The position numbers were made by a program, and so were the translations under genes. This document shows, piece by piece, positions 15,595 through 50,592 of a stretch of DNA of 64,000 nucleotides (position 1 is the first letter of the stretch; every line of letters starts with the position of its first letter). This DNA comes from Mycolicibacterium cosmeticum. GTDB lineage: Bacteria > Actinomycetota > Actinomycetes > Mycobacteriales > Mycobacteriaceae. The stretch spans positions 992,001 to 1,056,000 of the forward strand of contig NZ_CCBB010000001.1 of the NCBI RefSeq assembly GCF_000613185.1, given 5' to 3'. Under the pieces are notes generated by a model. The model made no database searches. It was not told where the DNA came from and was given only the letters and a program-made list of their open reading frames with translations.

Positions 15595-15690
15595 GCCGCC
15601 CCTTCCTGCGGAAACATCATTCTCGTCTTCGACTAATCAAGTGTGCTAATATCGGACATCAATGTGCACTATGTATAGAGCATCACTCTC
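15595..15690. promoter_or_regulatory. Divergent promoter region between the mhpC-like operon and the IclR gene
   Basis: 96 bases with locally high A+T. On the plus strand TATAGA (15674-15679) could be a -10 for the IclR gene, placing the start of transcription close to the GTG/ATG codons at 15691-15697. Two similar segments, starting TGTGC and ending CATCA (about 15640 and 15663), are candidate IclR half-sites. These are visual matches only. Confidence 0.45.
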
Positions 15691-16404: not shown

Positions 16405-16418
16405 AAGGAATTGCAACC

Positions 16419-18038
16419 GTGTCGGTTTGGGACCAGGAAGTCGACGTCGTCGTTCTCGGATCCGGCGGCGCCGGGCTGGCGGCCGCGCTCACCGCCGCGG
16501 TGCACGGCGCGTCGGTCGCGGTCTACGAGAAGGCGCCCACGGTGGGCGGCACCACCGCGGTGTCGGGCGGTATCGTCTGGATCCCCGCCCACGACCGGCT
16601 CGCCGGCGCCGATCTGAGCGTGGCGGATGGACTGAGGTACCTTGCGGCCCAGTCGCTGGGCGTCATGGACCGCGGCCTGGTCGAGACGTTCGTGCGCACC
16701 GGGCCCGTCATGCTGGACTTCCTGGAGGCACACAGCGAGCTGCGCTTCGACATCGCCGAGGGTTTCCCGGATTACAAACCGGAACTGCCGGGCGGGCGCC
16801 CGGGCGGCGGACGATCGCTGAATGCCAAGCCCTTCGATCTGTCCCGGATCGGGGAATGGCACGACCGGATCACCGCCTTCCCGGTGGACTTCAGCAACGT
16901 CGGCATCGACGCCGAAACGCGCGCCCGCATCCACGCCGCCGTCGACGACATGGACGGCGATTACTGTGTGGCCGGCACCGCGCTGATCGCCGGGCTGCTC
17001 AAGGGACTGCTGGACCGCGGCGTGACGCCGGTGACGCAAGCCCGCGCGCAGGAGTTGATCGAAGAGTCCGGCCGGATCACCGGCGTGCGAATCACCGTCG
17101 ACGGCACCGATATCCGGGTCGGTGCCCGTCGCGGTGTCATCCTGGCCACCGGCGGCTTCGAATGGGACCCGCAACTGGTGGAGGCCTACCTGCGCGGGCC
17201 GATGCGCGGCGCGGTGTCCCCGCCGAACAACACCGGTGACGGCTTGCGGATGGCCATGGCACACGGTGCCGACCTGGCCAACATGGGTGAGGCGTGGTGG
17301 GTGCCGATCGTGCAGATTCCCGGCGATACGCTCGGCGGCGTGCCGCGCAGCCGAAGCGTCCGGCTGGAGCGCACCCGGCCGCGCAGCATCATCGTCAACC
17401 GGGCCGGCAAGCGGTTCCTCAACGAAGCGGGCGAATACAACTCGATGGCCGGGCCGTTCCACCATCTGGACCCGCGCGCCGGTTACCTCAACGATCCGGC
17501 CTGGATCGTCTTCGACGACCAGCACCTCAAGCGCTACGGCTTCCTGGGCGTCGAGCCCGGCGGCACGGCGCCCGACTGGTTCCACCGCTCGGCCACGCTG
17601 GAAGACCTCGCCGACGCGACCGGCATCGACGCCGGTGGCCTACGCCGGACCGTCGATGCCTGGAACGCCGGCGTCGAACACGAACAGGATCCCGACTTCG
17701 GTCGTGGCGCAAGCGCTTACGACGGCTACTGGGGTGACAACGCGGCACCGACACCGGCCTTGCAGACCCTCGGGCCACTGGACACCGCACCGTTCTACGC
17801 GGTCCCGGTGGCCATCGGCGCCATGGGCACCAAGGGCGGGCCGCGCACCGATGGTGATGGCCGGGTGCTGCACGTCAACGGCACGGTGATCGAGGGGCTG
17901 TTCGCCGCGGGCAACGCGATGGCCGGGGTGACCGGCAAGGCCTACGGCGGCGCCGGCGGCACACTGGGTCCGGCGTTGGTGTTCGGCTATCGCAGCGGCC
18001 ACACCGCCGCCACCGGCGAATCCGCCCCCACCCCATAG
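16419..18038 (+). CDS. KstD-like FAD-dependent dehydrogenase
   Basis: 539 residues from GTG 16419, preceded by GAAAGGAA. FAD motif VVVLGSGGAGLAAALTA at about residues 9-25, then VYEKAPTVGGTTAVSGGIVWIP. The C-terminal IEGLFAAGNAMAGVTGKAYGGAGGTLGPALVFGYRSG has the Tyr-Gly-Gly-Ala-Gly pattern shared with 3-ketosteroid dehydrogenases. It follows the IclR gene by 14 bases and is presumably co-transcribed with it, outside the main operon. With the paralogue at 10442 it suggests successive alpha,beta-desaturations of a cyclic ketone. Its stop codon lies in the left arm of a long hairpin. Confidence 0.87.
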   Translation: MSVWDQEVDVVVLGSGGAGLAAALTAAVHGASVAVYEKAPTVGGTTAVSGGIVWIPAHDRLAGADLSVADGLRYLAAQSLGVMDRGLVETFVRTGPVMLDFLEAHSELRFDIAEGFPDYKPELPGGRPGGGRSLNAKPFDLSRIGEWHDRITAFPVDFSNVGIDAETRARIHAAVDDMDGDYCVAGTALIAGLLKGLLDRGVTPVTQARAQELIEESGRITGVRITVDGTDIRVGARRGVILATGGFEWDPQLVEAYLRGPMRGAVSPPNNTGDGLRMAMAHGADLANMGEAWWVPIVQIPGDTLGGVPRSRSVRLERTRPRSIIVNRAGKRFLNEAGEYNSMAGPFHHLDPRAGYLNDPAWIVFDDQHLKRYGFLGVEPGGTAPDWFHRSATLEDLADATGIDAGGLRRTVDAWNAGVEHEQDPDFGRGASAYDGYWGDNAAPTPALQTLGPLDTAPFYAVPVAIGAMGTKGGPRTDGDGRVLHVNGTVIEGLFAAGNAMAGVTGKAYGGAGGTLGPALVFGYRSGHTAATGESAPTP

Positions 18039-18093: not shown

Positions 18094-19020
18094 TCAGGGC
18101 TGGTCTTTGACGGCGGCCTTCGGCGGGCCCGCGGTGCGCCAATCGTCCAGGCCGTCCTCGGCCAGTCCCACCGGGAACTTGTTGTCGTGCACCTGCGACC
18201 AGTGGCTGTGGTTGAGCTGGTGCATGGTGAAGCAGGCGTTCAGCGAGTTGTAGAAACCCTGGTTGTCCTGCGTCTGGTTGACCGATTCCTTGATCAGCAG
18301 CGCGGCCATGGTCGGCACCTTGGCGATCCGCCGCGCGAATTCCACTGTCTTGTCCGCCAGTTCGTCGAGCGGGAAGATCTTGGACACCATGCCCAGCGCG
18401 TGGCCCTCCTCGACCGAGAGGGTGTCGCCGGTGAGCATCAGCTCCTTGGTCTTGCGGGCGCCGAACTCCCACGGGTGGGCGAAGTACTCGACACCGCACA
18501 TGCCCAGCCGGGTGCCGACGACGTCGGTGAATCGGGTGTTGTCCGCCGCGACGATCAGGTCACAGGACCACATCAGCATCAGCGCCGCGGCGTAGACGTC
18601 GCCGTGCACCGAGGCGATGGTGATCTTGCGTAGATTGCGCCACCGCCGGGTGTTCTCGAAATAGTGATGCCACTCCTGCAACATCAGCTTCTCCGCACCC
18701 TCCCGGGTGCCTCCGTCGACGGTGAAGCTCGGGTGCTGGTTCGGGCCGGGCGAGTACTCACCGATCTGGACCTTGGATCCGACGTCGTGGCCGGCCGAGA
18801 ACATCGGCCCGTGCCCGCCCAGGATCACCACCCGCACGGTGTCGTCGGCCTCGGCCCGCAGGAAGGCGTCGTGCAGTTCGACGAGCATGCCGCGGTTCTG
18901 CGCATTGCGGGCCTCGGGGCGGTTGAGCATGATCCGGGCGATCGTGCCTTCGTCGAGGGTTTCGTAGGTGACGAAGCGATAGTCGGGGGTCTCCGAGTCG
19001 GTCACAGCCATGAATCGCAC
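18094..19020 (-). CDS. Crotonase-fold acyl-CoA enzyme lacking both usual catalytic glutamates
   Basis: 308 residues from GTG 19020, favoured over an ATG at 19011 because AGGA sits 5 bases upstream of the GTG. Crotonase features: RIMLNRPEARNAQNRGM, VVILGGHGPMFSAGHDVGS and WSCDLIVAADNTRFTD. In enoyl-CoA hydratases the segment before CDL reads GGG-x-EL and the next block carries Q-P-E; here they read AAALMLMW and TDVV. Both acid/base Glu positions are therefore hydrophobic. It may be a hydrolase, isomerase or dehalogenase-type crotonase. It is last in the DUF35-aldolase operon, 40 bases after the aldolase. The family is clear; the reaction is open. Confidence 0.85.
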   Translation of the reverse strand: MRFMAVTDSETPDYRFVTYETLDEGTIARIMLNRPEARNAQNRGMLVELHDAFLRAEADDTVRVVILGGHGPMFSAGHDVGSKVQIGEYSPGPNQHPSFTVDGGTREGAEKLMLQEWHHYFENTRRWRNLRKITIASVHGDVYAAALMLMWSCDLIVAADNTRFTDVVGTRLGMCGVEYFAHPWEFGARKTKELMLTGDTLSVEEGHALGMVSKIFPLDELADKTVEFARRIAKVPTMAALLIKESVNQTQDNQGFYNSLNACFTMHQLNHSHWSQVHDNKFPVGLAEDGLDDWRTAGPPKAAVKDQP

Positions 19021-19060
19021 TCTATTCCTACGAGAACGCCATTACCGCACACGGGGCGTC

Positions 19061-20206
19061 TCAGAGCGACAGGATGGTCGCCGACGCGGTGCCGGGCGCC
19101 CCGTACACCTGGGCCAACCCCACCCGAGGCTTGCCCGGGACCTGCCGCTCCCCCGCCTGGCCGCGCAACTGACGCACCAGTTCGTGCATCTGCCGCAGGC
19201 CCGAGGCCCCGATCGGCTCGCCGTTGGCGATCAGCCCGCCGTCGGTGTTGACCGGGATGGACCCGTGGATCTCGGTGGCACCGTCGGCGAGCAGCTTCTC
19301 CTGCTCACCGTCGGCGCACAGTCCGGTCTCGGCCATATGGATGATCTCGGCGCCGGCGTCGGTGTCCTGCAACTGGGCGATATCGACGTCTTCTGGGCCG
19401 ATACCCGCCGCCTCGTAGGCCGCCTTGGCGGCGAACACCGTCGGTGACGGGTCCTCGTCCAGCGGCGCCGACGTGGCATGCACCTCGTAGGCGCCGTAGG
19501 TGCGGGTGCGGATCTCGCTGGCACGCACGTACACCGGTGTGTCGGTGTAGCGGTGCGCGATATCGGCGCGGCACATGATCACCGCGGCGGCGCCCTCGTC
19601 GGGCGCACAGAACATGTACTGCCGCAGCGGGTAGTTCAGCACCGGCGAGGCCATGATCTCGTCCACCGAGATCTCCTTGCGGCGGAACGCGTTCGGGTTG
19701 AGCACGCCGTTGCGGAAGTTCTTGTTGGCCACCCGTGCCAGCGTCTCCTCGGAGATGTTGTGCTTGTGGATGTAGTGGTTGGCCTTCATACCGAAGAACT
19801 TGGTGGTGACGAACTGGCCGTTGTTCGCATACCACTGCGGCAAGGCCAACTTGGCGGGGTCGTCGGTGAACGCACCGCGCGGGTGCTTGTCCAAACCGAT
19901 GGCGATACCGATGTCGTACTTGCCCAGCCGGATGGTGTCGGCGGTCTGCTGAATGGCGCTGGCCGACGTCGCGCACGCGTTGAAGACGTTGGTGAAGGTG
20001 ATGCCGGTGAGCCCGACCAGCCGGGTGACCGCGTCCGGGTTCGACACCTCGTAACTGCCACCGAAGCCGAACTGGATGTCCTTCCACTCCAGCTTGGCGT
20101 CGGCCAGCGCACTCGTGATGGCCTCGGCACCCATCTCCATGGCGGTCTTGTCGAACCGGCCGAACGGGTGGATGCCGACGCCGATGATGGCCACGTCACT
20201 ACTCAT
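19061..20206 (-). CDS. Ltp2-like thiolase-fold acyl-CoA aldolase (lipid-transfer protein type)
   Basis: 381 residues. The thiolase fold is shown by VFNACATSASAIQQTAD near residue 75 (the Cys position) and NTDGGLIANGEPIGASGLRQ near 325. The catalytic GHP motif of true thiolases reads GEP, and the second catalytic cysteine block at the C-terminus is replaced by VYGAPGTASATILSL. These are features of Ltp2-type proteins that perform retro-aldol rather than Claisen cleavage. Known Ltp2 works as a complex with a DUF35 domain, and such a gene is immediately upstream (55-base gap). Expected: cleavage of a 3-hydroxyacyl-CoA to a ketone plus a short acyl-CoA. Confidence 0.85.
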   Translation of the reverse strand: MSSDVAIIGVGIHPFGRFDKTAMEMGAEAITSALADAKLEWKDIQFGFGGSYEVSNPDAVTRLVGLTGITFTNVFNACATSASAIQQTADTIRLGKYDIGIAIGLDKHPRGAFTDDPAKLALPQWYANNGQFVTTKFFGMKANHYIHKHNISEETLARVANKNFRNGVLNPNAFRRKEISVDEIMASPVLNYPLRQYMFCAPDEGAAAVIMCRADIAHRYTDTPVYVRASEIRTRTYGAYEVHATSAPLDEDPSPTVFAAKAAYEAAGIGPEDVDIAQLQDTDAGAEIIHMAETGLCADGEQEKLLADGATEIHGSIPVNTDGGLIANGEPIGASGLRQMHELVRQLRGQAGERQVPGKPRVGLAQVYGAPGTASATILSL

Positions 20207-20261
20207 ATCGAAAACCCCTGTGTTGGTTGGCTCTTCGTGCCGGTGCTCATCTGCAGAACTT

Positions 20262-20675
20262 TCAGACCGGCTGGAATGCGAAGGTGATGATCTCGTCGCC
20301 GTCGGCGTCGGTGGTGAACGGCACCATGGTCAGCTCGACCTCCATGCCGAATTTCAGCTTGGCGGGATCGCTTTCGGTGAGCCGGCCCTCGACGCGGATC
20401 CGGTCACCGAGCTGTACCAGCCCGACGCCGAACGGGACGAAGTCTTTGCCGGTGGGCCCGGCGTACGGCGCACCGGGCGGGAAACCCTGCGTGGTCCAGG
20501 CGATCACCGTGCCGCGGCGCGGCAACAGCACATCGGACATCTCGGCCTTGCTGCACTTCGGGCAACGCTGCTGGCGGGGGAACGTCGTGGCCGAGCAGGC
20601 AGCGCACTGACTACCGATCAGTTGCGGATCCTCGTCCGGCCAGGTGGAGATCTCGGGGGCAAGCGCCTTCGGCAT
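20262..20675 (-). CDS. DUF35 zinc-ribbon/OB-fold protein, partner of the Ltp2-like aldolase
   Basis: 137 residues. Four cysteines in a zinc ribbon (CAACSATTFPRQQRCPKCSK) at about 24-43 are followed by an OB-fold acyl-CoA-binding part (GTVIAWTTQGFPPGAP, PFGVGLVQLGDRIRVEGRL). DUF35 proteins bind thiolase-fold partners; in cholesterol catabolism the DUF35 part of ChsH2 activates Ltp2. Here it is a separate small protein directly upstream of the aldolase. The ATG at 20675 is preceded by GGAG. This is the first gene of the three-gene operon and has its own 70-base upstream gap. Confidence 0.9.
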   Translation of the reverse strand: MPKALAPEISTWPDEDPQLIGSQCAACSATTFPRQQRCPKCSKAEMSDVLLPRRGTVIAWTTQGFPPGAPYAGPTGKDFVPFGVGLVQLGDRIRVEGRLTESDPAKLKFGMEVELTMVPFTTDADGDEIITFAFQPV

Positions 20676-20745
20676 CGGACTCCTCGGAACAGAATACGTT
20701 AACGGTTTCGTACAGTAGCACTTCCGAAAGTTGGAAACCAGATTC

Positions 20746-21624
20746 TCATTCGGCCTTGACCTGGGCTCCGTCCAACAACCGGGCCGTCGCGGCGTACACG
20801 TCGATATCGCCGGCCGCGACCTCGGCGGCCAATTCGGCCAGTCCCGGATGCGCCCGCAGCGCACTCTGCGCCAGCGACAAGATCTGCAACCGCGCCCGTG
20901 CCGCGCGCCGACCCGCGTCATCGGCGCGGTGGTGGGCGTCGACGGCGTCGACGAGTTCCCCGATACCGTCGTTCTGTGCGGCGATGATCTTCAGTACCGG
21001 CATTCCGGTCTCGATGTGCAGGTCGCGCACCGTCTGATCGGCACCTTCGCGGTCGGCCTTGTTCACGACGATGATGTCGGCCACCTCCAGCAGGCCGGCC
21101 TTGGCCGCCTGAACCGCGTCACCGGCACCGGGATTCAAGATGGCCACGGTGGGATCGGCGACCGCCGCGATCTCCACCTCGGACTGACCGACCCCGACCG
21201 TCTCCAATACGACGAGGTCGTAGCGCAGATCGGCGAGCAGGCTGATCGACGCCGGCACCGCCGCCGACAGGCCGCCGAGATGGCCGCGGGTGGCCACCGA
21301 TCGGATCAGGACATCGGAATCGTCGAGATGGGCCGCCATCCGGATGCGGTCCCCCAACAGCGCGCCACCGCTGTACGGCGAGGACGGATCGACGGCCAGG
21401 ACGGCGACCCGCAGCCCGCGGGCCCGGTACGCGGCGACGAGCACCGCGACGGTGGTCGACTTGCCCGCGCCGGGCGGCCCGGTGATACCGATGGTGCGGA
21501 TCGGCCGCGGCGACAGCGCGGCGAGCACCTCCGCCCGTCGGTCGCCTTCCACCAGGCTCAGCAGCCGGCCGGTGGCCCGCTGGGATCCATCCCGCGCGGC
21601 CGTCAGGAGCTCGTGAATGTCCAT
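20746..21624 (-). CDS. meaB: MeaB-family GTPase, B12-mutase chaperone
   Basis: 292 residues. G3E P-loop GTPase: Walker A GITGPPGAGKSTT at about 46-58, DPSSPYSGGALLGDRIRM, the switch segment ETVGVGQSEVEIA and base-recognition NKAD at about 193. These are the hallmarks of MeaB/ArgK, which gates cofactor loading and repairs adenosylcobalamin-dependent acyl-CoA mutases. The cognate mutase subunits are at 26332 and 26730 in the same region. The gene is divergent from an SDR across a palindromic operator at 21650-21666. Confidence 0.93.
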   Translation of the reverse strand: MDIHELLTAARDGSQRATGRLLSLVEGDRRAEVLAALSPRPIRTIGITGPPGAGKSTTVAVLVAAYRARGLRVAVLAVDPSSPYSGGALLGDRIRMAAHLDDSDVLIRSVATRGHLGGLSAAVPASISLLADLRYDLVVLETVGVGQSEVEIAAVADPTVAILNPGAGDAVQAAKAGLLEVADIIVVNKADREGADQTVRDLHIETGMPVLKIIAAQNDGIGELVDAVDAHHRADDAGRRAARARLQILSLAQSALRAHPGLAELAAEVAAGDIDVYAATARLLDGAQVKAE

Positions 21625-21649
21625 CGGAAGTGACCTTAGGCGCTCGTCA

Positions 21650-21666
21650 TGAGAATGTTATTCTCA
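21650..21666. promoter_or_regulatory. Palindromic operator TGAGAAT-GTT-ATTCTCA
   Basis: Perfect 7-base arms with a 3-base spacer between the divergent meaB and SDR genes. The core GAGAATGnTATTCTC recurs at 23894-23916, and the left half recurs twice at 28345 and 28483. A TetR-type regulator not encoded in this window is the likely ligand (inference). Confidence 0.75.
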
Positions 21667-21701
21667 CGTGTCGAGAGTGACAGTTGCAAGAAGGGAACCA
21701 C

Positions 21702-22466
21702 ATGGACATCGCCGGTAGCTCAGCGCTCGTCGTCGGCGGAGCCGGAGGCTTGGGGGAAGCCACCGTCCGGCGACTGCATGCCGCGGGCGCCAAGGTCGTG
21801 GTCGCCGACCTTGCCGACGAGAAAGGCCCGAAGCTCGCCGACGAGCTCGGTGTGCGCTACGTGCGCACCGATGCCACGTCGGAGGAGTCCGTCAACGCCG
21901 CGATCGCTGAAGCAGAATCCCTTGCGCCGCTGCGTATCTCGGTGGACACCCACGGCGGACCGGCGACCGGCGGCCGGCTGATCGGCAAGGACGGTTCCCC
22001 GCTGGACCTCGCGGGTTTCGAGAAGACGATCAAGTTCTACCTGACCGCGGTGTTCAACGTGCTGCGCCTGTCCGCCGCCGCGATCGCCCGCACCGAGCCG
22101 CTGGCCGAGGGCGCCCGCGGCGTCATCGTCAACACCGCCTCCATCGCCGGTTACGAAGGGCAGATCGGCCAGCTGCCGTACGCCGCCGCCAAGGGCGGGG
22201 TGCTGGGCATGACCTTGGTGGCCGCGCGCGATCTGTCACCGCTGGGCATCCGGGTGGTCACCATCGCCCCGGGCACCATCAACACTCCCGCCTACGGCAA
22301 GGCCGCCGATCAGCTCGAGCAGTACTGGGCCCCGCAGGTTCCCTTCCCCAAGCGCATGGGGCGTTCGACGGAGTACGCCCAACTGGCGCAGAGCATCATC
22401 GAGAACGACTATCTCAACGGCGAGGTGATCCGGCTCGACGGGGCGCTGCGGTTCCCGCCCAAGTGA
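21702..22466 (+). CDS. SDR, 3-hydroxyacyl-CoA dehydrogenase type II-like
   Basis: 254 residues from ATG 21702, with AAGGGA 6-11 bases upstream. Cofactor motif VVGGAGGLG near residue 9, Asp in VVVADLADE (NAD), a long insert after beta-4 (DTHGGPATGGRLIGKDGSPLD), Ser in VNTASIAGYEGQIGQ and Tyr-Lys in YAAAK near residue 163. The insert and overall pattern match the 17-beta-HSD10/HADH-II group, which oxidises 3-hydroxyacyl-CoA. Within this locus it would feed a 3-ketoacyl intermediate or act in the reverse direction before aldol cleavage. It is controlled from the palindrome at 21650-21666. Confidence 0.88.
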   Translation: MDIAGSSALVVGGAGGLGEATVRRLHAAGAKVVVADLADEKGPKLADELGVRYVRTDATSEESVNAAIAEAESLAPLRISVDTHGGPATGGRLIGKDGSPLDLAGFEKTIKFYLTAVFNVLRLSAAAIARTEPLAEGARGVIVNTASIAGYEGQIGQLPYAAAKGGVLGMTLVAARDLSPLGIRVVTIAPGTINTPAYGKAADQLEQYWAPQVPFPKRMGRSTEYAQLAQSIIENDYLNGEVIRLDGALRFPPK

Positions 22467-22505
22467 GGCCGGCGGGCAACACCGGGCAACGCCGCGAGGA
22501 GTCGG

Positions 22506-23873
22506 TCAGCGGGTGACGGCCGGGCCCGCACAGCGGTCCCGAAGCACCCGCCGCAACACCTTTCCCGAAGGCAGACGCGGAATCTCGTCGACGACCACCA
22601 CCCGGCGCGGTTTCTTGTAGGAGGCCAATCGCTGTGCGACCCAGTCGGCGATCTCGGCCTCCGACAGCTGCGCGCCCACCACTGCCGCGACAACCGCCTC
22701 ACCGTCGGCGGGATCGGGTATCCCGAACACCGCGCAGTCCGCGACGGCGGGGTGGGCGTGCAATACCGCCTCCACCTCGGCCGGGGCGACCTGGAATCCG
22801 CGTACCTTGATCATCTCCTTGAGCCGGTCGGTGATGTGCAGCCAACCGTCCTCGTCCAGATGTCCGATGTCACCCGTGCGGTACCAGCCGTCCTCGCAGA
22901 CCGCGGCGGTGTCGCTGTCGGGCAGGTAGCCGGCCATGACCGACTCCGAGCGGACCTCGATCTCCCCGGTCGGCGCGATGCGCACCCTCACCCCGGGCAC
23001 CGGTTTGCCGACCGTGTCCAGCCGGGCCGCCCCGATGGGGCAGCACGAGATGACCGGCAGCTCGCTCGCGCCGTACGCCGAGACCCATTGCACCCCAGCC
23101 CGTTCGGTGACGGTGTCGGCGACACTCTTGGTCACCGGGGTGGCACACCACATGATGTACCGCAAGGACGACAGGTCATAGCACTCCAGATCCGGGTGGG
23201 CGCTCATGGCCAGGGCGATGGGCGCGACGGCCATCTCGACGGTGATCCGGTCGGCCTGGATGTGGCGCAGCATGGCGTCGATGTCGAAGCGACGGTGCAG
23301 CCGCATCCACGCGCCGGCGTCGAGCACGGTGGCGATGTTGAGCAGGCCCAGGATGTGCGATGGCGGTGTCATGATCTGCATCCGGTCGTGCGCGGTGAGG
23401 CCGAGGGCGTGCCGCCAGTGCCGGATCGCCGTGGCGAAACCGGCGTGGGTGTGGCGGACCGCCTTGGGCATGCCGGTGGTCCCCGAACTGAAGACGAACA
23501 GCGCATCGGCGTCCGCCCGCACCGCCGCCCAACTGCCGCCGCCCGGGATGATCGGCTCGTCGAGATGCAGCGTGGGCACCAACTCGGCCAGCAGCGGTTG
23601 GTCCCCGACACCGAGCGCGGGCCGGGTCAACGCCAGCGCATGCGCCACTTCGGCGCGCTTCCAGGACGGGCTGATCAGGACGACCGCGGCACCGAGCCGC
23701 CAGATGGCGCGCAGCGCGATGACGAACTCGGGCCGGTTGGAGGACATCAGCGCCACCCGATCTCCGCGCCGGACACCACGACCGGCCAGGGTGCCCGCCA
23801 GCCCGTCGGCAAGCGCGTCGAGTTCGGCCAGTGTGTACTGCTGGTCGTCGAAAGCGAGCACGGCGCCGGTCAT
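22506..23873 (-). CDS. AMP-forming acyl-CoA synthetase (FadD-like)
   Basis: 455 residues, somewhat short for the ANL family (usually about 500). The P-loop FVFSSGTTGMPKAVRHTH is near residue 127. SAYGASELPVISC, GWYRTGDIGHLDEDGWLHITDRLKEMIKVRGFQVAPAEVEA and the C-terminal catalytic Lys in PRLPSGKVLRR are all present. It should activate a carboxylic acid to its CoA thioester with ATP. The gene is divergent from the 2Fe-2S ferredoxin across a 23-base palindrome and convergent with the SDR at 21702. A second ligase is at 29360, so two different acids or two stages are activated. Confidence 0.9.
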   Translation of the reverse strand: MTGAVLAFDDQQYTLAELDALADGLAGTLAGRGVRRGDRVALMSSNRPEFVIALRAIWRLGAAVVLISPSWKRAEVAHALALTRPALGVGDQPLLAELVPTLHLDEPIIPGGGSWAAVRADADALFVFSSGTTGMPKAVRHTHAGFATAIRHWRHALGLTAHDRMQIMTPPSHILGLLNIATVLDAGAWMRLHRRFDIDAMLRHIQADRITVEMAVAPIALAMSAHPDLECYDLSSLRYIMWCATPVTKSVADTVTERAGVQWVSAYGASELPVISCCPIGAARLDTVGKPVPGVRVRIAPTGEIEVRSESVMAGYLPDSDTAAVCEDGWYRTGDIGHLDEDGWLHITDRLKEMIKVRGFQVAPAEVEAVLHAHPAVADCAVFGIPDPADGEAVVAAVVGAQLSEAEIADWVAQRLASYKKPRRVVVVDEIPRLPSGKVLRRVLRDRCAGPAVTR

Positions 23874-23893
23874 CAGACCCCTATCTTATCCAG

Positions 23894-23916
23894 ATTGGAG
23901 AATGATATTCTCCAAT
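23894..23916. promoter_or_regulatory. Palindromic operator, 10-base arms around GAT
   Basis: Perfect inverted repeat ATTGGAGAAT-GAT-ATTCTCCAAT centred between the acyl-CoA synthetase start (23873, minus) and the ferredoxin start (23946, plus). It shares the 15-base core GAGAATGnTATTCTC with 21650-21666. Occupation would block both divergent promoters. Confidence 0.8.
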
Positions 23917-23945
23917 TGTCAGAACGACGAGTCCAGGAGAGGTCC

Positions 23946-24242
23946 ATGACGGCAGAACCCGTGCCCGCCGACGAGGTGACGATCCTGTTGGATCGCGCAC
24001 GTACGACGGTGACCGCCAAGCCGGGCGAGACGCTCTTGGAGACCGCCCGCCGCAACGGGCTGACACCGCCCTTCTCCTGCGAGGCGGGCAACTGCGGCAC
24101 GTGCATCGCCAAGCTCACCGAGGGCAGCGCGACCATGCGCGTCAACGACGCCCTCACCCAGGACGAGGTGGACGAGGGCTACGTCCTGACCTGCCAGGCC
24201 GTGCCCGACCCGGGACCGGTCGTCGTCGACTACGAAGACTGA
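23946..24242 (+). CDS. 2Fe-2S plant-type ferredoxin
   Basis: 98 residues from ATG 23946. The cluster motif FSCEAGNCGTC (C-x4-C-x2-C) is at about 46-56, with the fourth Cys in YVLTCQAV near residue 84, the plant/adrenodoxin-like arrangement used in oxygenase electron chains. It is read from the palindrome at 23894-23916, divergent from the acyl-CoA synthetase. No oxygenase or reductase is adjacent, so the partner must be elsewhere; this is odd for a stand-alone catabolic ferredoxin. Its last 13 bases overlap the convergent CoA-transferase gene. Confidence 0.9.
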   Translation: MTAEPVPADEVTILLDRARTTVTAKPGETLLETARRNGLTPPFSCEAGNCGTCIAKLTEGSATMRVNDALTQDEVDEGYVLTCQAVPDPGPVVVDYED

Positions 24243-25264
24243 GTCTCGAACACCGGCGCGGGCCGGTACTCGGGTTGATAGCCCGTCACCTTCACCGGGC
24301 TGCCCACCAGCCGGAATTCACCGGCCTGCACCACCATTTCGGGCGTCTGGGCGAGCGCCTGCGGCAAGGTGCGCACCGCCGCCGCCGGAATGCCGAGTGG
24401 TTTCAGGCGGGCTTCCCAGTTCGCCGCGGTGTCCCGCGCCAGCGCCGCCGAGACCACGGCCAGCACCTCGTCGCGCGCCGCGGCGCGCTCGGCCATGGTG
24501 GCGAACCCCTCGATAGCCGCTTCGCCCGCGAACGCCCTCCAGAACCCGTCGTGGGTGATGAACAGCGCCAGGTAGCCCTCAGCGGTGGGAAAGAGCTGGG
24601 CGGGAACGTAATACGAGTGCGCTCCGAACGGATAGCGGCGCGGGTGGGCACCGTCGTTCAGGTACGCGGCCGCCCGATAGTTCAGCTGGGACAGCATCAC
24701 GTCGCGCAGCGACACCTCCACCTGGCCGCCGCGACCCGACACGATCTGGGCCAGCAGGCCCAGCGCCGCGGTCAAGCCGGTGGAGTTGTCGGCGGCGGAG
24801 TAACCGGGCAGCGTGGGCGGGCCGTCCGGGTCACCCGTCATCGCCGCCACCCCGGTGGCCGCCTGGATGACGTAGTCGAAGGCCGGATCGTCACCGCCGT
24901 GCAACCCGAAGCCGGTGAGCGCGACACACACCAGCTTCTCGTTGTGCCTACGCAGCGACTCGTAGGTCAGGCCCAGCCGCTTGATGGCCGACGGTTTCAT
25001 GTTCACCAGCAGCGCGTGTGAATCCGCCACCAGCGCAGCGAGTTTCGCCTGACCGTCGGCCGACTGCAGATCCAGGCAGACGCTGCGCTTGTTGCGGTTG
25101 AGGCTGGCGAAATAGCTGTCACCGACCTGCCGGGAGATCTCGCCACCGGGCGGCTCGACCTTGATCACCTCGGCACCCAGGTCGGCCAGCATCATGGTGG
25201 CGTACGGCCCGGCCAGCATCACCCCGACCTCGATGATGCGGATACCCGCCAGCGGTCCGGTCAT
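24230..25264 (-). CDS. CaiB/BaiF-type (family III) CoA transferase
   Basis: 344 residues, slightly shorter than the typical 380-400. The N-terminal GIRIIEVGVMLAGPYATMMLADLGAEVIKVEPPGGE and NRNKRSVCLDLQS blocks, LVCVALTGFG, and GYSAADNSTGLTAALGLLAQ (region of the catalytic Asp) are diagnostic. It moves CoA between carboxylic acids, sparing ATP; alternatively members act as 2-methylacyl-CoA racemases. Racemisation at a methyl-branched carbon would fit a locus with a B12 mutase; I cannot decide between the two. It is downstream of the luciferase-like gene, separated by a nested inverted repeat. Confidence 0.88.
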   Translation of the reverse strand: MTGPLAGIRIIEVGVMLAGPYATMMLADLGAEVIKVEPPGGEISRQVGDSYFASLNRNKRSVCLDLQSADGQAKLAALVADSHALLVNMKPSAIKRLGLTYESLRRHNEKLVCVALTGFGLHGGDDPAFDYVIQAATGVAAMTGDPDGPPTLPGYSAADNSTGLTAALGLLAQIVSGRGGQVEVSLRDVMLSQLNYRAAAYLNDGAHPRRYPFGAHSYYVPAQLFPTAEGYLALFITHDGFWRAFAGEAAIEGFATMAERAAARDEVLAVVSAALARDTAANWEARLKPLGIPAAAVRTLPQALAQTPEMVVQAGEFRLVGSPVKVTGYQPEYRPAPVFETQSS

Positions 25265-25266
25265 GA

Positions 25267-25329
25267 CGCCGAGACTACGGTTGTTGCGGGAATCAGGCCG
25301 AAATCACGCAATAAACCGTCGTTTCGGCG
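25267..25329. repeat. Nested inverted repeat in the gap between CoA transferase and luciferase-like genes
   Basis: Outer arms CGCCGA/TCGGCG and ACGGTT/AACCGT are separated by 4 unpaired bases on each side. An inner TTGCG/CGCAA pair (25284-25288, 25307-25311) lies inside. The structure fills most of the 79-base gap between two same-direction minus-strand genes. It could be a terminator, an mRNA processing structure or a REP-like element. Confidence 0.55.
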
Positions 25330-25343
25330 CGTCGTTGCCCCCT

Positions 25344-26300
25344 TCACCGCACCTGCTCGGCGAGCTCGGCGATCACCTCGCGGGTCCGGTATTTCGATGC
25401 GATCAACTCGTCGCGGTTGTCCCCGATCGGCAACAACCGCACCGACAGATCGGTCACGCCGGCATCGGCGAACCTCTGGAATCGACCCAGAATCGCTTCC
25501 ATATCACCCGCTGCGAGCAGATCACCGACGTTGCGGGCCTCGCCGCGGTCCAGCAAGCGCTGGTAGTTCGGCGACGTCTCGGCCTCGGCGAGCACCCGGT
25601 TGGCCCGCTCCTTGGCTTCCTCGATCTCCGAATTGGCGCACAGGGTGACCGGGATACCGGCCACGATACGCGGGGCCGGCTTGCCGGCCTGGGCGGCGGC
25701 CTTGGTGATCTTCGGCGCGATGTGCTCACCGATCGCCTTCTCGTCGGCCATCCACAGCGAGGTGCCGTCCGCTTGTTCCCCGGCGATCTGCAACATCACC
25801 GGACCCAACGCCGACACCAGCACCGGCATCGGAGTATCGGCGCTCAGCACGGTCGGATTGTGCACGGTGAACGAATCGTTCTCCACGTCAACAGCTCCGG
25901 GCCCGGAGATGGCCGCGTTGAGCACCTCCAAGTAATCCCGGGTATAGGCCGCCGGCTTCTCGTAGGGCAGACCCAGCATGTCCCGGACGATCCAGTGGTG
26001 CGACGGCCCCACCCCGAGGGCCAGCCGGCCGCCGGACATGGCGTGTACCGAAAGCGACTGACGGGCAAGGGCGATCGGATGCTGCGCCTGCAGCGGCACG
26101 ACCGCGGTGCCGAGTTCGATCCGCGAGGTGTTCGCCGCCATCAGCGCCACCATGGTGAGGCAGTCGAAATCGTTGGGTACCTGCGGCATCCATGCGCTGT
26201 CCAGTCCGGCCGACTCGGCCCACTGGATATCGGACACCAGCTTGGCAACCTTGCGCGCCATATCGCCGCGCTCGGCCCCGATCATCACGCCCAGTTTCAC
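25344..26300 (-). CDS. LLM-class F420/FMN-dependent oxidoreductase
   Basis: 318 residues. MKLGVMIGAERGD, WAESAGLDSAWMPQVPNDFDCLTMVALMA and IELGTAVVPLQAQHPIALARQSLSVHAMSGGRLALGVGPSHH are hallmarks of mycobacterial F420-dependent luciferase-like proteins. PMPVLVSALGPVMLQIAGEQADGTSLW lies in the middle. The likely cofactor is F420 from resemblance to the mycobacterial MSMEG-type subfamily, but an FMN enzyme is not excluded. The gene follows the mutase small subunit by 31 bases in the same direction, so a redox step adjacent to the mutase reaction is plausible. Confidence 0.87.
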   Translation of the reverse strand: MKLGVMIGAERGDMARKVAKLVSDIQWAESAGLDSAWMPQVPNDFDCLTMVALMAANTSRIELGTAVVPLQAQHPIALARQSLSVHAMSGGRLALGVGPSHHWIVRDMLGLPYEKPAAYTRDYLEVLNAAISGPGAVDVENDSFTVHNPTVLSADTPMPVLVSALGPVMLQIAGEQADGTSLWMADEKAIGEHIAPKITKAAAQAGKPAPRIVAGIPVTLCANSEIEEAKERANRVLAEAETSPNYQRLLDRGEARNVGDLLAAGDMEAILGRFQRFADAGVTDLSVRLLPIGDNRDELIASKYRTREVIAELAEQVR

Positions 26301-26331
26301 TGCCCACCCCTGCTTCGCCCGCCCGACCGCA

Positions 26332-26729
26332 TCAGCCCGACACCCTCTCCGTCAGCGCCCGCACCTCGGACACCAAAGTGTCCAGGCCGGTTCCGGTGGG
26401 GAACACCGCTGCCGCGCCGGCGTCCAACAGTTTCTGCACATCGCCCTGCGGGATGGTGCCCCCGACGACGACGGCGATATCCCCCGCGTCGGCCGCCCGC
26501 AGCGCCTCCACGGTGCGCGCCGTCAGCGCGACGTGGGCTCCCGACAGGATCGAAAGGCCCACCAGCGCAACATCTTCCTGCAGGGCGATGGACACGATGT
26601 CCTCGATGCGCTGCCGGATGCCGGTATAGATGACCTCGAATCCAGCATCGCGCAGGGTACGAGCAACGATCTTGGCGCCGCGATCGTGCCCGTCCAGACC
26701 GGGCTTGGCCACCAGAACGCGGGTGACCA

Positions 26730-26730
<1 letters not shown>
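26332..26730 (-). CDS. B12-binding subunit of an acyl-CoA mutase
   Basis: 132 residues from ATG 26730, sharing one base with the large-subunit stop. The base-off cobalamin motif is complete: GLDGHDRGAK (D-x-H-x-x-G) near residue 14, LVGLSILSGAH (S-x-L) and VVVGGTIP. This is the stand-alone cobalamin subunit found in isobutyryl-CoA, 2-hydroxyisobutyryl-CoA and archaeal methylmalonyl-CoA mutases, whereas typical actinobacterial methylmalonyl-CoA mutase carries the domain fused to the catalytic chain. It pairs with the catalytic subunit encoded just upstream. Confidence 0.93.
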
Positions 26731-28319
<1,589 letters not shown>

Positions 28320-28332
28320 CAGTGGATAACGT

Positions 28333-28360
28333 ACTTGCAAAAAATGAGAATGCCAATACC
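28333..28360 (+). repeat. Copy 1 of a 28-base direct repeat in the mutase/SDR divergent promoter
   Basis: ACTTGC, six A, then TGAGAATGCCAATACC. It matches copy 2 at 28471-28498 at 25 of 28 positions in the same orientation, 138 bases apart. It contains the TGAGAATG half-site of the region's palindromic operators. Copy 1 lies 14 bases from the mutase start codon. Confidence 0.7.
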
Positions 28361-28470
28361 GCGCCTGGGAAACGTGCACGATGCGGGCCTATCGTGCTCT
28401 CCCGGCGCCGCCTCCGCGGCCTTCCACCACCCCCCGGCGGCCGACGTACCTGCCAATGGGTGATTATGGG

Positions 28471-28498
28471 ACTTGCTGAGAATGAGAATGCCAATACC
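28471..28498 (+). repeat. Copy 2 of the 28-base direct repeat
   Basis: ACTTGC, TGAGAA, then TGAGAATGCCAATACC. The half-site TGAGAAT occurs twice overlapping here (28477 and 28483). TACCAT at 28495-28500 could serve as a -10 for the SDR gene at 28527. The 110 bases between the copies hold no other structure I can name. Confidence 0.7.
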
Positions 28499-28526
28499 AT
28501 CGAGGGGTACGAGTCCAGGGAGGCCC

Positions 28527-29363
28527 ATGTCCAGCGCGCACCGTCCATTAGCCGACCGCACCGTGGTGGTGTCCGGCGGCAGCCGCGGCATCGGGCTGGC
28601 CATCGCACTCGGCGCGGCCGCCCAAGGTGCCAATATCGTGCTCCTCGCCAAGACGGCCGAACCCCACCCCAAGCTGCCCGGCACCGTGTACACCGCGGTG
28701 GCCGACGTGGAGGCGGTGGGCGCCAAGGCCGCCGCCGTGGTGGGTGACGTCCGCAAGGAGGACGATGTGCAGCGGGCGATCGACACCGCGGTGCACACCT
28801 TCGGCGGCGTCGACATCGTGATCAACAACGCCAGCGCCATCGCGACGGAAGCCACCGAATCCCTCGCGGCCAAGAAGTTCGACCTCATGATGGACATCAA
28901 CGTGCGGGGTACGTTCCTGCTCACCAAGGCGGCGCTGCCGCACCTGCGGCAATCCCCCAATGCCCACGTGGTCACGCTCGCCCCTCCCCTCAACCTGAAC
29001 CCGCACTGGCTGGGCGCTCACCCGGCCTACACGGTGAGCAAGTACGGCATGACCTTGTTGTCGCTGGGCTGGGCGGCCGAATACGCGGACGCCGGGATCG
29101 GCTTCAGCTGTCTGTGGCCGCAGACCTACATCGCCACCTCGGCGGTGACCAACCTGGCCGACGGCCAGAACATGGTGGCGGCCGCACGGAGCCCGCAGAT
29201 CATGGCCGACGCCGCGGTGCAGATCCTCACCGGACCCGCGAAGGAAGCCAACGGCCAGACCTATATCGACGCCGACGTGCTGGCCGCCGCCGGGATCACC
29301 GACCTGTCCGGATACGGCGGTGGGGACGATCCGATCTGGGATATCTTCGTGGACAAGTCATGA
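28527..29363 (+). CDS. SDR, HSDL2-like short-chain dehydrogenase
   Basis: 278 residues from ATG 28527, with GGGAGG just upstream. VVVSGGSRGIGLAIALGAAAQGANIVLLAKTAEPHPKLPGTVYTA is the typical N-terminus of the HSDL2-type family. NNASAIA follows, then HVVTLAPPLNLNPHWLGAHPAYTVSKYGM with Tyr-Lys in YTVSK near residue 173. The position of the catalytic Ser is taken by LAPP, a variation common in this subgroup. It leads a three-gene operon, with an ATGA overlap into the ligase. It probably acts on an acyl-CoA or alcohol intermediate. Confidence 0.87.
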   Translation: MSSAHRPLADRTVVVSGGSRGIGLAIALGAAAQGANIVLLAKTAEPHPKLPGTVYTAVADVEAVGAKAAAVVGDVRKEDDVQRAIDTAVHTFGGVDIVINNASAIATEATESLAAKKFDLMMDINVRGTFLLTKAALPHLRQSPNAHVVTLAPPLNLNPHWLGAHPAYTVSKYGMTLLSLGWAAEYADAGIGFSCLWPQTYIATSAVTNLADGQNMVAAARSPQIMADAAVQILTGPAKEANGQTYIDADVLAAAGITDLSGYGGGDDPIWDIFVDKS

Positions 29364-30856
29364 GTATCTCACTGCTGCTGGAGATGTCGTCGTCCGCGAA
29401 CCCGGACCGGACGGCGGTGGTGTCGGGTGAGTTGCGCCTGACCGTCGAGGAACTCAGCGTCCACGCCGACGGCGGGGCCGGGGTGATCGCGGCCTCGGGT
29501 GCCGGGCATGTCGCCTACGTCGGCAGCGGCGGCGCACTGCTTCCGCTGCTGTTGTTCTCGGCCGCACGCGCCGGCGTCGCGTTCACCCCACTGAACTACC
29601 GGCTGTCCGCCGACGGGTTGCGCACACTGATCGACCGGCTGCCGGACCCGCTGGTGATCGTCGACGACGACTATCGCGACGCGGTCGGTCTCGGCTACCG
29701 GGTGATCGGTTCCGACGAGTTCGTCGCGCAGGCCCGCACCGCCGAGCCGACTGCCGAGTTCGCCGACCCCGAATCCGTCGCCGTCGTGCTGTTCACCTCA
29801 GGCACCACGTCGCAGCCCAAAGCCGTTGAGCTGACCCACAACAATCTCACCAGTTACATCACCGGGACCGTCGATTTCGACTCGGCCGAGCCCGGCGATG
29901 CCGCCCTGATCTGCGTGCCCCCGTATCACATCGCCGGCGTGAGCGCCGCGCTGTCGAACCTGTATGCCGGGCGCAAGATGGTGTACCTGCCGCATTTCGA
30001 TGCCCGGGAATGGGTGCGTTTGGCGGCGGCCGAGGACGTCACGTCGGCCACGGTGGTGCCGACCATGCTGGATCGCATCGTCGGCGTGCTCGAGGTCGAG
30101 GGCGCCGCGCTGCCGTCCCTGCGCACGTTGGCTTACGGCGGTTCCAAGGTGGCATTGCCCTTGGTACGCAAGGCGCTCGAGTTGCTACCGCACGTCGGGT
30201 TCGTCAACGCCTACGGGTTGACCGAGACCAGCTCCACCATCGCGGTGCTCACCCCCGACGACCACCGGATCGCACTCGGCTCGGCCGGCGGAGCGCCGGC
30301 CAAACGGCTGGCTTCGGTGGGCCGGCCGGTGCCGAGTATCGAGGTGCAGATCCGCGGAGAGGACGGCTCCGTGCTCGGCCCGAACCAAACGGGAGAACTG
30401 TTCGTCCGAGGCGAGCAGGTTTCGGGCCGCTACACCGGGATCGGGTCGGTACTCGATGCGGAAGGCTGGTTTCCCACCAAAGACGTTGCGACCCTTGATG
30501 AGGACGGCTACCTCTACATCGGCGGCCGCTCCGACGACACCATCATCCGCGGCGGGGAGAACATCGCGCCGGCCGAGATCGAGGACGTGCTGGTCGAGCA
30601 TCCCGAGGTGCGGGACTGCGCCGTCGTCGGCGCCGAGGACGCGGAGTGGGGGCAGATCATCGTCGCCGTCGTGGTGCCCGCGGTGGGCGCCGACCCCGAC
30701 CCCGAGGATCTTCGGGCGTTCGTGCGTGCGCAGTTGCGCGGCTCCCGCACCCCGGACCGCGTCGTCTTCCGTGCCGAACTCCCCACCAATGCGACCGGCA
30801 AGGTGCTGCGCCGCGAACTCGTCAGCGAGCTGAACACTTCCAAGGAGCCAGCATGA
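29360..30856 (+). CDS. AMP-forming acyl-CoA synthetase (second ligase of the locus)
   Basis: 498 residues, full ANL length. LFTSGTTSQPKAVELTHNN near residue 151, VNAYGLTETSSTIAVL near 285, TKDVATLDEDGYLYIGGRSDDTIIRGGENIAPAEIEDVL, and the catalytic Lys in LPTNATGKVLRREL near the C-terminus. The glycine-rich P-loop has GTTSQPKA in place of the usual GTTGxPK, still compatible with ATP binding. Translation is coupled to the SDR upstream and to the small unknown gene downstream by ATGA overlaps, so the three products probably act together. Confidence 0.92.
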   Translation: MSISLLLEMSSSANPDRTAVVSGELRLTVEELSVHADGGAGVIAASGAGHVAYVGSGGALLPLLLFSAARAGVAFTPLNYRLSADGLRTLIDRLPDPLVIVDDDYRDAVGLGYRVIGSDEFVAQARTAEPTAEFADPESVAVVLFTSGTTSQPKAVELTHNNLTSYITGTVDFDSAEPGDAALICVPPYHIAGVSAALSNLYAGRKMVYLPHFDAREWVRLAAAEDVTSATVVPTMLDRIVGVLEVEGAALPSLRTLAYGGSKVALPLVRKALELLPHVGFVNAYGLTETSSTIAVLTPDDHRIALGSAGGAPAKRLASVGRPVPSIEVQIRGEDGSVLGPNQTGELFVRGEQVSGRYTGIGSVLDAEGWFPTKDVATLDEDGYLYIGGRSDDTIIRGGENIAPAEIEDVLVEHPEVRDCAVVGAEDAEWGQIIVAVVVPAVGADPDPEDLRAFVRAQLRGSRTPDRVVFRAELPTNATGKVLRRELVSELNTSKEPA

Positions 30857-31155
30857 TCAAGAACGGCACCCGCCTGCAGAGCCAGGTCTGTGACACCCAG
30901 GTGATCGTGGTGCGCAGCAGTGACAGTCTCGATGACCTGCGTGCTGGCGGCGCCCCGATGGTGCCCGTGGGTGCAGCGGTCGCGGACGGCTTGGCGTTGG
31001 ACCCGACGCTGTCCGACGGGAATCTCATGGGCAAACGTTACGTCGACGGCAGCGGTGCCGAGGTGCTGGTGACCAAGGCCGGGGCGGGCACGCTGAGCGT
31101 CGGCGCCACCCCGCTGAGCGTCAAGGAGGCCAAGCCGCTGCCCGCCAGCGACTGA
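30853..31155 (+). CDS. Small conserved protein of unknown function coupled to an acyl-CoA synthetase
   Basis: 100 residues, ATGA-coupled to the ligase. I do not recognise a named domain. It has no signal peptide or membrane segment. It begins MIKNGTRLQSQVCDTQVIVVR, has a GGAPMVPVG turn and ends in short beta-like strands (RYVDGSGAEVLVTKAGAGTLSVGATPLSVKEAK). The pattern suggests a compact all-beta protein with one cysteine. Strict coupling to an AMP ligase suggests a carrier, cofactor-handling or regulatory partner; this is inference. A terminator-like hairpin follows immediately. Confidence 0.75.
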   Translation: MIKNGTRLQSQVCDTQVIVVRSSDSLDDLRAGGAPMVPVGAAVADGLALDPTLSDGNLMGKRYVDGSGAEVLVTKAGAGTLSVGATPLSVKEAKPLPASD

Positions 31156-32331: not shown

Positions 32332-32338
32332 GCGCCGC

Positions 32339-49977: not shown

Positions 49978-50011
49978 CCCTTGCGCAGGCACCGCAGTTA
50001 GGATCGGGCGA

Positions 50012-50569: not shown

Positions 50570-50592
50570 CGCCCGCGCGGCGAGTCAGTGGG

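Follow-up and report, generated by a model that had tools for sequence, protein, structure and literature searches.

A split B12-dependent acyl-CoA mutase of a separate clade and its putative catabolic regulon in Mycolicibacterium cosmeticum

Which reaction is carried out by a B12-dependent acyl-coenzyme A (CoA) mutase that is encoded as two separate subunits amid genes for acyl-CoA ligases, a CoA-transferase and oxidoreductases, and to which pathway does it belong? The question is raised by a region of the M. cosmeticum genome (G000, 6.46 Mb, with contigs C1, C2 and C3) that occupies positions 18094-31155 of a 64,000-nucleotide stretch, hereafter the window (G000:C1:992001-1056000). Genes of the window were called with a codon-model gene caller and assigned to families by Pfam and NCBIfam profile scans, which gave 14 genes in the region and, among them, every enzyme type listed in the original prediction, where the locus had been read as an undescribed catabolic system built on the split mutase. 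Our preferred reading, to which we give a probability of about 0.4, is that the region forms the distal part of a ca. 116-kb TetR-controlled regulon, serving the breakdown of a presumably hydrophobic, cyclic substrate, in which a split mutase of a separate clade would follow a succinyl-to-malonyl route together with a CoA-transferase, MeaB as its chaperone and a crotonase whose gene lies beyond the window. Although the enzyme is of a known kind, its clade, the residue set and the partnership with this crotonase and CoA-transferase are new to us; our literature searches found no paper naming the function of this mutase or describing a catabolic unit around it, and those for a mutase with DUF35, or for a methylmalonyl-CoA mutase with Mycolicibacterium and lipid-transfer protein, gave nothing useful.

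Active site, clade and distribution of the mutase

The two subunits are encoded as follows, the number of loci referring to the synteny set described below.

26730..28295, minus strand: mutase catalytic subunit of a distinct clade (PF01642, 646.6 bits, residues 1-512 of 512)
26332..26730, minus strand: separate B12-binding subunit (PF02310; TIGR00640, 141.5 bits; GLDGHDRG motif; 118 of 119 loci)

The full-length PF01642 domain and a partner subunit with the DxHxxG B12-binding motif (GLDGHDRG) place the pair in the superfamily of methylmalonyl-CoA mutase (MCM) and isobutyryl-CoA mutase (ICM). In alignments that include human MCM and 2-hydroxyisobutyryl-CoA mutase (HCM), the window mutase retains Y49, R167, H204 and E332, corresponding to Y89, R207, H244 and E370 of MCM (numbers that we take to be those of the P. 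shermanii enzyme), and has A203, G290, V292, F326 and A328 in place of Y243, H328, Q330, H364 and N366; at the Asn366 position the proteobacterial set has Cys or Ala. These positions were surveyed in 240 proteins, namely the best 120 of 7,809 homologues and the best 120 of 1,520, the latter being the number of proteins that match the Marinobacter form at E <= 1e-200, with eight mutases of other types as a reference set. Tyr89/Arg207, His244 and Glu370 are retained in 240 of 240, and Tyr243, His328, Gln330, His364 and Asn366 are lost in 240 of 240 while being intact in all eight comparison mutases.

We take Tyr89/Arg207 to bind the substrate carboxylate and Tyr243, Gln330 and Asn366 to lie on the adenosyl side. 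The pair typical of HCM and ICM, a non-polar residue and Gln at the Tyr89/Arg207 positions, is absent, Tyr/Arg being found in every one of the proteins surveyed. The aligned active site suggests a mono-CoA ester of a dicarboxylic acid, not of a simple branched or cyclic one, and in this the original prediction is modified. A passage of PMC4413051 states that Glu370 of MCM interacts with the adenosyl group, and beyond it the literature on this residue set yielded nothing useful. Another mutase group, seen in four of the fetched locus stretches (L011, L012, L188 and L189; L numbers denote such stretches and G numbers the genomes compared), has the Tyr/Arg pair together with normal adenosyl-side residues; the L189 gene, on a Streptomyces canus plasmid, adjoins metH, metF and ahcY.

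In a tree of 32 rows a branch with support 100/99 sets the mutase clade apart, and the actinobacterial and proteobacterial mutases form two groups inside it; the MCM and HCM rows were flagged as long branches, so that their exact placement is unsure. By sequence the window mutase is thus a separate clade, distinct from the MCM, ICM and HCM sequences compared. A canonical two-subunit MCM is encoded on contig C2 and the split mutase is therefore not the housekeeping enzyme.

At E <= 1e-190 the mutase occurs in 46 of 397 genomes of the order, 40 of which belong to the genus of the window; among the same-genus genomes shown in this sample, 40 of 42 carry it and two do not. In a sample of nearest relatives it was found in 9 of 21 genomes: nine of the 13 genus members carry it and the eight other genomes do not. 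Two of the four genus members without it are incomplete genomes. Eighteen of 396 genomes in a phylum sample match the mutase, 12 of them at more than 1,000 bits and six at ca. 640 bits, the latter of which may be other mutases. Actinobacterial homologues in the protein database include sequences of Nocardia, Rhodococcus, Gordonia, Actinomadura, Parafrankia, Streptomyces and Blastococcus, and those of the second group include Halomonas, Billgrantia, Azospirillum and alphaproteobacterial assemblies. The database usually labels these homologues methylmalonyl-CoA mutase, and a widespread enzyme under this name is very probably something else; the right annotation would alter predictions of B12 dependence for environmental mycobacteria, and should catalysis proceed without the residues that usually contact the adenosyl group, this would also bear on radical control in such enzymes.

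Conserved partners of the mutase

Synteny was examined in 128 loci (48 + 80), reduced to 119 distinct ones by removing nine that were identical over the compared mutase DNA. The counts leave out the G005 locus (4.7 kb) as well as G209 and G374, two of the 46 mutase-bearing genomes of the order. Sources are mostly Mycobacterium and Mycolicibacterium species. A gene was scored as present at >= 50% identity over at least half of the query, and the counts per gene are lower bounds because the loci span ca. 20 kb and some contigs stop inside the cluster. The other genes of the region are listed below in order of position.

18094..19011, minus strand: crotonase-fold protein of the PRK08290 subfamily, accessory (NF006140, 393.5 bits, cut-off 280; 12 of 119 loci)
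19061..20206, minus strand: Ltp2-like thiolase-fold protein, accessory (PF22691, PF00108; 16 of 119 loci)
20262..20675, minus strand: DUF35/ChsH2-like protein with four Cys, accessory (PF01796, PF12172; 18 of 119 loci)
20746..21624, minus strand: MeaB-type GTPase chaperone (PF03308, 227.6 bits; 77 of 119 loci, a lower bound as stretches end)
21702..22466, plus strand: short-chain dehydrogenase/reductase (SDR) a (PF00106; 79 of 119 loci)
22506..23873, minus strand: acyl-CoA ligase a, ACSa (PF00501/PF13193; 108 of 119 loci)
23946..24242, plus strand: 2Fe-2S ferredoxin, Fer2 (PF00111, 63.9 bits; 108 of 119 loci)
24230..25264, minus strand: class-III CoA-transferase, CaiB (PF02515, 282.6 bits; 117 of 119 loci)
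25344..26300, minus strand: F420-dependent LLM oxidoreductase (TIGR03564, 346.1 bits, cut-off 234.25; 115 of 119 loci)
28563..29363, plus strand: SDR b, divergent from the mutase (NF006133, 396 bits, cut-off 250; 86 of 119 loci)
29360..30856, plus strand: acyl-CoA ligase b, ACSb (PF00501/PF13193; 72 of 119 loci)
30853..31155, plus strand: conserved 100-aa protein, ending KPLPASD and accompanying SDR b and ACSb (74 of 119 loci)

Mutase, B12 subunit, LLM oxidoreductase and CaiB follow one another in this order on one strand in 115 of the 119 loci, which bears out the predicted catabolic unit on a split B12 mutase and led us to reject a chance neighbourhood. The commonest order is mutase, B12 subunit, LLM, CaiB, (Fer2, divergent), ACSa, FadE_s, FadE_l, ECH, (SDR a, divergent), a thiolase or none, and MeaB, the genes beyond those of the window being found in 101 (FadE_s), 99 (FadE_l), 98 (ECH) and 31 (thiolase) loci. 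FadE_s matches the C-terminal acyl-CoA dehydrogenase domain only and FadE_l all three domains, a split also shown by the heteromeric acyl-CoA dehydrogenases of steroid degradation; in the source genome the FadE_s-FadE_l-ECH trio lies on contig C3 (L085:7117-9830), directly behind an operator with 11 of 12 matches (see below). The conserved synteny asked for in the original prediction is borne out by these counts, but the Ltp2/DUF35/crotonase trio (18094-20675) was rejected as part of the core.

Among the single partners, MeaB scores 235.0 bits for TIGR00750, slightly below the cut-off of 240.75, and retains its G motifs. The CoA-transferase, for which a racemase had been the predicted alternative, scores far nearer to CoA-transferases among solved structures, the best match being formyl-CoA transferase (155.9 bits) with racemase chains at 65-69 bits. 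The Asp of its GxxxxDxxxG segment aligns with that of three PDB members; we take this residue to be catalytic in class-III CoA-transferases, and racemases of the same fold presumably also have Asp there. Alpha-methylacyl-CoA racemase has its His in a GHD motif, and at what seems to be the corresponding place the window protein reads AFDY. The 100-aa protein has no Pfam or NCBIfam match, and its predicted model (pLDDT 85) gave no PDB fold match at E <= 0.001.

A smaller set of partners was found in Proteobacteria. Plasmid-borne mutase homologues with 56-58% identity occur in Sulfitobacter dubius, Paraburkholderia, Marinobacter and Diaphorobacter, in each case in one run with a crotonase, the B12 subunit, a CoA transferase and a GTPase or hypothetical protein. 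The Sulfitobacter GTPase is a MeaB (PF03308, 215 bits), the corresponding products of the other three match the window MeaB at 44-50%, and the window CoA-transferase is 51-55% identical to its proteobacterial partner. No LLM, ligase or FadE gene is annotated within the four runs, and no LLM gene was found beside the L039 mutase. IclR-type regulators occur near the Sulfitobacter and Diaphorobacter operons and a KdgR-named one near that of Paraburkholderia; TRAP or tricarboxylate-type transporter genes directly follow the operon in Sulfitobacter, Paraburkholderia and Diaphorobacter, and in Marinobacter a TRAP substrate-binding gene lies ca. 5 kb upstream with transposase genes in between. This minimal set suggests import, CoA transfer, isomerisation and a crotonase step. 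The mutase-crotonase-CoA-transferase set is small enough for in vitro work and offers a handle on a large catabolic regulon, for which the papers found name no substrate. The Diaphorobacter plasmid (L187) also encodes a second acyl-CoA mutase large subunit, a MeaB and an AMP-binding protein, ca. 8-11 kb upstream of the operon.

The crotonase-fold protein of the region is present as predicted, but it is not the partner of the mutase: it is 21-24% identical to two of the four proteobacterial crotonases, the other two having no match among the matches listed. Among the window cluster, the extra genes of relatives and a 166-kb stretch of the contig, the best match of the proteobacterial crotonase is a 238-aa crotonase at G000:C1:904769 (35-47% identity), 113 kb from the mutase and outside the window. 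Its orthologue (E <= 1e-55) occurs in 9 of 21 genomes, which are exactly those with a mutase orthologue (>= 86% identity), and three of the 12 genomes without it are less than 90% complete. In two more distant actinobacteria, G251 and G428, no more than 7 kb separate the crotonase from the mutase. All 22 aligned rows of this crotonase (21 distinct genes) have Glu at position 144 and Gln at 164, which we take to correspond to the catalytic Glu144 and Glu164 of the rat hydratase. The residue pair of enoyl-CoA hydratases is therefore incomplete, and since the canonical enzyme uses both catalytic Glu, hydration is unlikely; by analogy with Sbm and YgfG of E. coli, the partner crotonase would probably decarboxylate the product of the mutase.

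Two cis elements and the surrounding island

The region carries two distinct cis elements, listed here with the TetR protein encoded outside the window.

21651..21665, no strand: perfect operator GAGAATGTTATTCTC, between MeaB and SDR a
23898..23912, no strand: perfect operator GAGAATGATATTCTC, between ACSa and Fer2
28346..28360, plus strand: GAGAATGCCAATACC in the mutase promoter, conserved exactly in 117 of the 119 mutase promoters
28484..28498, plus strand: second GAGAATGCCAATACC, in the SDR b promoter
C1:985717-986370: TetR protein (TetR_N, 30.4 bits, cut-off 24)

With up to three mismatches GAGAATGNNATTCTC has 22 matches in the window (both strands, a palindromic site being counted twice) versus 7.3 +/- 3.1 in shuffled sequence, and none of 100 shuffles reaches 22; the two perfect operators both lie in divergent promoters of the region. 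Among the 119 loci, a copy of the palindrome GAGAATnnnATTCTC with at least 11 of its 12 positions matched lies in the promoter of ACSa in 107 of 108 cases and in that of SDR a in 77 of 79, as compared with 54 of 2000 random 300-bp intervals of the same loci, true sites included. The shuffle test and this conservation indicate that the shared operator of the original prediction is real. With one mismatch GAGAATRKYATTCTC occurs at eight places in the source genome, all on C1 and seven of them between 900 and 1016 kb, a reversed-pattern control giving none; in eight further genomes the palindrome again has many of its sites close to the mutase, besides scattered copies in other places. An orthologue of the TetR protein is found in 10 of 21 genomes, namely the nine mutase carriers and the incomplete G008, and an operator copy with 11 or 12 matches is present in all ten TetR stretches fetched (ca. 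3-3.7 kb each). The gene adjoins MeaB in G004 and G012, and DUF35/Ltp2 beside the mutase in L063 and L067. We infer that its product is the repressor of the regulon.

The single regulon that had been predicted gains support from the shared operator and the co-occurrence of TetR, but the mutase promoter has a different conserved 15-mer, GAGAATGCCAATAYC. Random intervals reach at least 14 of its 15 positions in 31 of 2000 cases. With at most one mismatch it occurs three times in the 6.46-Mb source genome, twice between the mutase and SDR b and once before the partner crotonase, and it lies upstream of all nine crotonase orthologues. Across 16 further genomes 23 exact copies were detected, all within 11 mutase carriers, and each of the 23 adjoins either the mutase or the crotonase; this is so even in G236, in which 3.26 Mb of a 5.06-Mb contig separate the two genes. 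Of ten places with one mismatch, one flanks the crotonase and six others that were examined flank neither gene. G002 and G009, which belong to the same genus and do not carry the mutase, have no copy.

Operators occur at or near other genes of an island at ca. 900-1016 kb of C1, which code for CoA ligases, Amidohydro_2 proteins, FadE pairs, a cytochrome P450 and a Rieske oxygenase. The island also contains an Mce operon (G000:C1:911-928 kb, L089) that includes a thiolase, a ChsH2-like protein, a CaiB and an aldehyde dehydrogenase of its own and whose upstream sites reach only 10 of 12 matches. In G428 (same class, another order) a single stretch of 57 kb combines homologues of the Rieske oxygenase and of both types of amidohydrolase, a FadE pair and ligases with a DUF35-thiolase fusion, SDR a, a thiolase, the crotonase and all of the mutase set but MeaB, and has operator sites with 11-12 matches before some genes. 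G251 has, within 14 kb, a Rieske oxygenase, an amidohydrolase, the mutase, B12 subunit, CaiB, a ligase, MeaB, two FadE-type genes and the crotonase, without the operator, and in L063 and L067 a pair of genes homologous to the Mce permease genes of the island immediately precedes the mutase. From this gene content, island and cluster probably form one pathway for a hydrophobic, cyclic compound.

Genes for an MhpA-like hydroxylase, an MhpC/HsaD-like hydrolase, an IclR regulator and a KstD-like dehydrogenase adjoin the cluster at 13037-18038 of the window. At 31915-35197 an MmpS-type membrane protein (PF05423) is followed by a 952-aa open reading frame, probably MmpL. The end of the window (50000-64000) has a G+C content down to 0.61-0.65 in 50-60 kb and many low gene-caller scores, and is possibly acquired DNA.

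A possible link to cholesterol was also considered. In M. smegmatis, MSMEG_4864-4873 are reported in PMC4881515 as induced on cholesterol versus glycerol, the KstD-named MSMEG_4864 heading this range. Judged by locus tag, the mutase gene MSMEG_4881 lies near but outside it; its name, and the naming of the LLM family by NCBIfam after MSMEG_4879, suggest that it is the orthologue of the window mutase. A passage of PMC10066036 calls MSMEG_4881 a methylmalonyl CoA mutase gene and reports it mutated in two phage-resistant M. smegmatis isolates, in which other mutations were also present.

A proposed route, its alternatives and known systems

In the preferred reading, oxidation and ring opening would give a branched dicarboxylic acid, from which ACSa or the CoA-transferase would form a mono-CoA ester. 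The mutase would then move the thioester carbonyl to the adjacent carbon, converting a substituted succinyl-CoA to a substituted malonyl-CoA, the Gln-crotonase would decarboxylate the latter, and the resulting acyl-CoA would enter a round of beta-oxidation through the FadE heteromer, ECH, SDR a (likely a 3-hydroxyacyl-CoA dehydrogenase) and a thiolase, with the Ltp2/DUF35 aldolase added in a minority of genomes, that of M. cosmeticum included. The analysis establishes the gene content, the synteny and co-occurrence of the genes, their common cis elements and the clade with its residue signature. The dicarboxylate substrate is suggested by the active-site residues, its hydrophobic and cyclic source by the gene content, and the direction of the reaction, the decarboxylation and the order of steps by analogy; we regard the mechanism overall as moderately supported.

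Several points weigh against this scheme. The roles assigned to the mutase residues are, apart from that of Glu370, presumed ones, and as the lost residues are those taken to line the adenosyl pocket, mutase chemistry could be altered or absent. Relatedness may explain part of the match between crotonase and mutase because the nine genomes belong to one genus. No decarboxylase model was among the 25 of 73 NCBIfam matches listed for the crotonase, which are mostly generic hydratases and all below cut-off, and no decarboxylase structure was among the 60 of 227 PDB matches listed in a profile search with it. Two loci, L171 and L039 (the latter from another family), lack the 15-mer GAGAATGCCAATAYC, and a search of three G428 stretches did not detect it. 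Finally, that the proteobacterial operons stand alone suggests a small dicarboxylate, in loose agreement at most with a large, hydrophobic substrate in actinobacteria.

A bolder form of the scheme, which we put forward as a speculation with low odds, is that the mutase pocket has been remodelled for alpha-quaternary (gem-dialkyl) succinyl-CoA. By leaving the quaternary carbon, the thioester would yield a branched malonyl-CoA, which the Gln-crotonase would decarboxylate. Such a general radical route would lead past the quaternary carbons of cyclic isoprenoids, in soil actinobacteria as part of a pathway fed by Mce and in Proteobacteria for the small dicarboxylates left over. A search for dimethylsuccinyl-type substrates with cobalamin mutases gave nothing relevant by title among the papers listed.

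The alternative that survives best, although we consider it rather unlikely, is that the mutase runs in reverse, in the manner of ethylmalonyl-CoA mutase, from a substituted malonyl-CoA to a substituted succinyl-CoA, with the crotonase acting upstream or catalysing another reaction (isomerase, hydrolase). Mutases of this kind are reversible, the Tyr/Arg pair in its presumed role suits malonyl and succinyl esters equally, and the family models listed fix no reaction for the crotonase. However, no carboxylase or reductive carboxylase turned up among the scanned window proteins or in the annotation around the four proteobacterial mutases, so that a source of malonyl-CoA is not evident.

It is improbable that retro-aldol cleavage by Ltp2/DUF35 is the defining step, following activation, skeleton rearrangement and oxidation as in the original prediction. 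The full gene set is present, with the thiolase fold and DUF35 partner typical of an Ltp2/ChsH2 pair of predicted retro-aldolase activity, and the nearest solved chains of the Ltp2-like protein include the benzoylsuccinyl-CoA thiolase subunit 7pxp. The pair also recurs beside the cluster: in the first set it does so in four of 48 loci, the window included, in the window arrangement with the PRK08290 crotonase, and in another four (L063, L066, L067 and L069) in a different arrangement. The Ltp2/DUF35/ECH arrangement of the window is seen in L045 as well, to which the locus of M. neoaurum ATCC 25795 (L097) is identical over the compared mutase DNA. Against this, the aldolase genes occur in only 16-18 of 119 loci and are not annotated beside the four proteobacterial mutases. 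Since they are rare and FadE_s-FadE_l-ECH occupies the cluster in most relatives, the cleavage would be optional at best.

A similarly small chance is given to a mutase that is no longer a classical adenosylcobalamin enzyme and would use another cobamide, hold the adenosyl group in a shifted position or catalyse a non-mutase reaction. The change of five positions throughout the homologues surveyed, all kept in the reference mutases, favours it, whereas the retention of Glu370, His244, the GLDGHDRG motif of the B12 subunit and the G motifs of MeaB, and the presence of a MeaB-type protein with the mutase in both phyla, argue for conventional chemistry. It is hardly credible, although the database name speaks for it, that chance has placed among these genes a common mutase for methylmalonyl-, isobutyryl-, pivalyl- or 2-hydroxyisobutyryl-CoA, and MCM, ICM and HCM were rejected on residues and tree: homologues scattered without a conserved neighbourhood were looked for and not found, a canonical MCM sits on another contig, and residue signature, tree and synteny all set a separate clade apart.

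The preferred reading can be placed among known cobalamin mutases. With Ecm/MeaA and the anaerobic alkylsuccinate mutases it would share the substituted succinyl/malonyl chemistry proposed here. MCM has the same full-length domain family, Tyr89/Arg207, His244, Glu370 and a MeaB partner, whereas the window mutase has a separate small subunit, five replaced residues and a place in a separate clade. HcmAB and RcmAB are described as 2-hydroxyisobutyryl-CoA mutases in a passage of PMC7176365. HcmAB likewise has split subunits, and 4r3u, the best PDB match of the window mutase, is of this type; the HcmAB-type protein of M. petroleiphilum PM1 also adjoins an AMP-binding protein and MeaB, but differs in carrying Ile/Gln where MCM has Tyr89/Arg207, and in its intact Tyr, His, Gln, His, Asn set. 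Isobutyryl- and pivalyl-CoA mutases and IcmF resemble the window system in being split or modular mutases with a G-protein, and differ in that the ICM-like sequences compared have Phe/Gln at the Tyr89/Arg207 positions. A parallel in gene roles is the Sbm pathway of E. coli, made up of a mutase, a MeaB-like protein, the crotonase decarboxylase YgfG and a CoA-transferase: the same four roles are found in one operon in the proteobacterial version of our system, with the difference that here the CoA-transferase is of class III, the mutase is split and of another clade, and the crotonase has no decarboxylase model among the matches listed.

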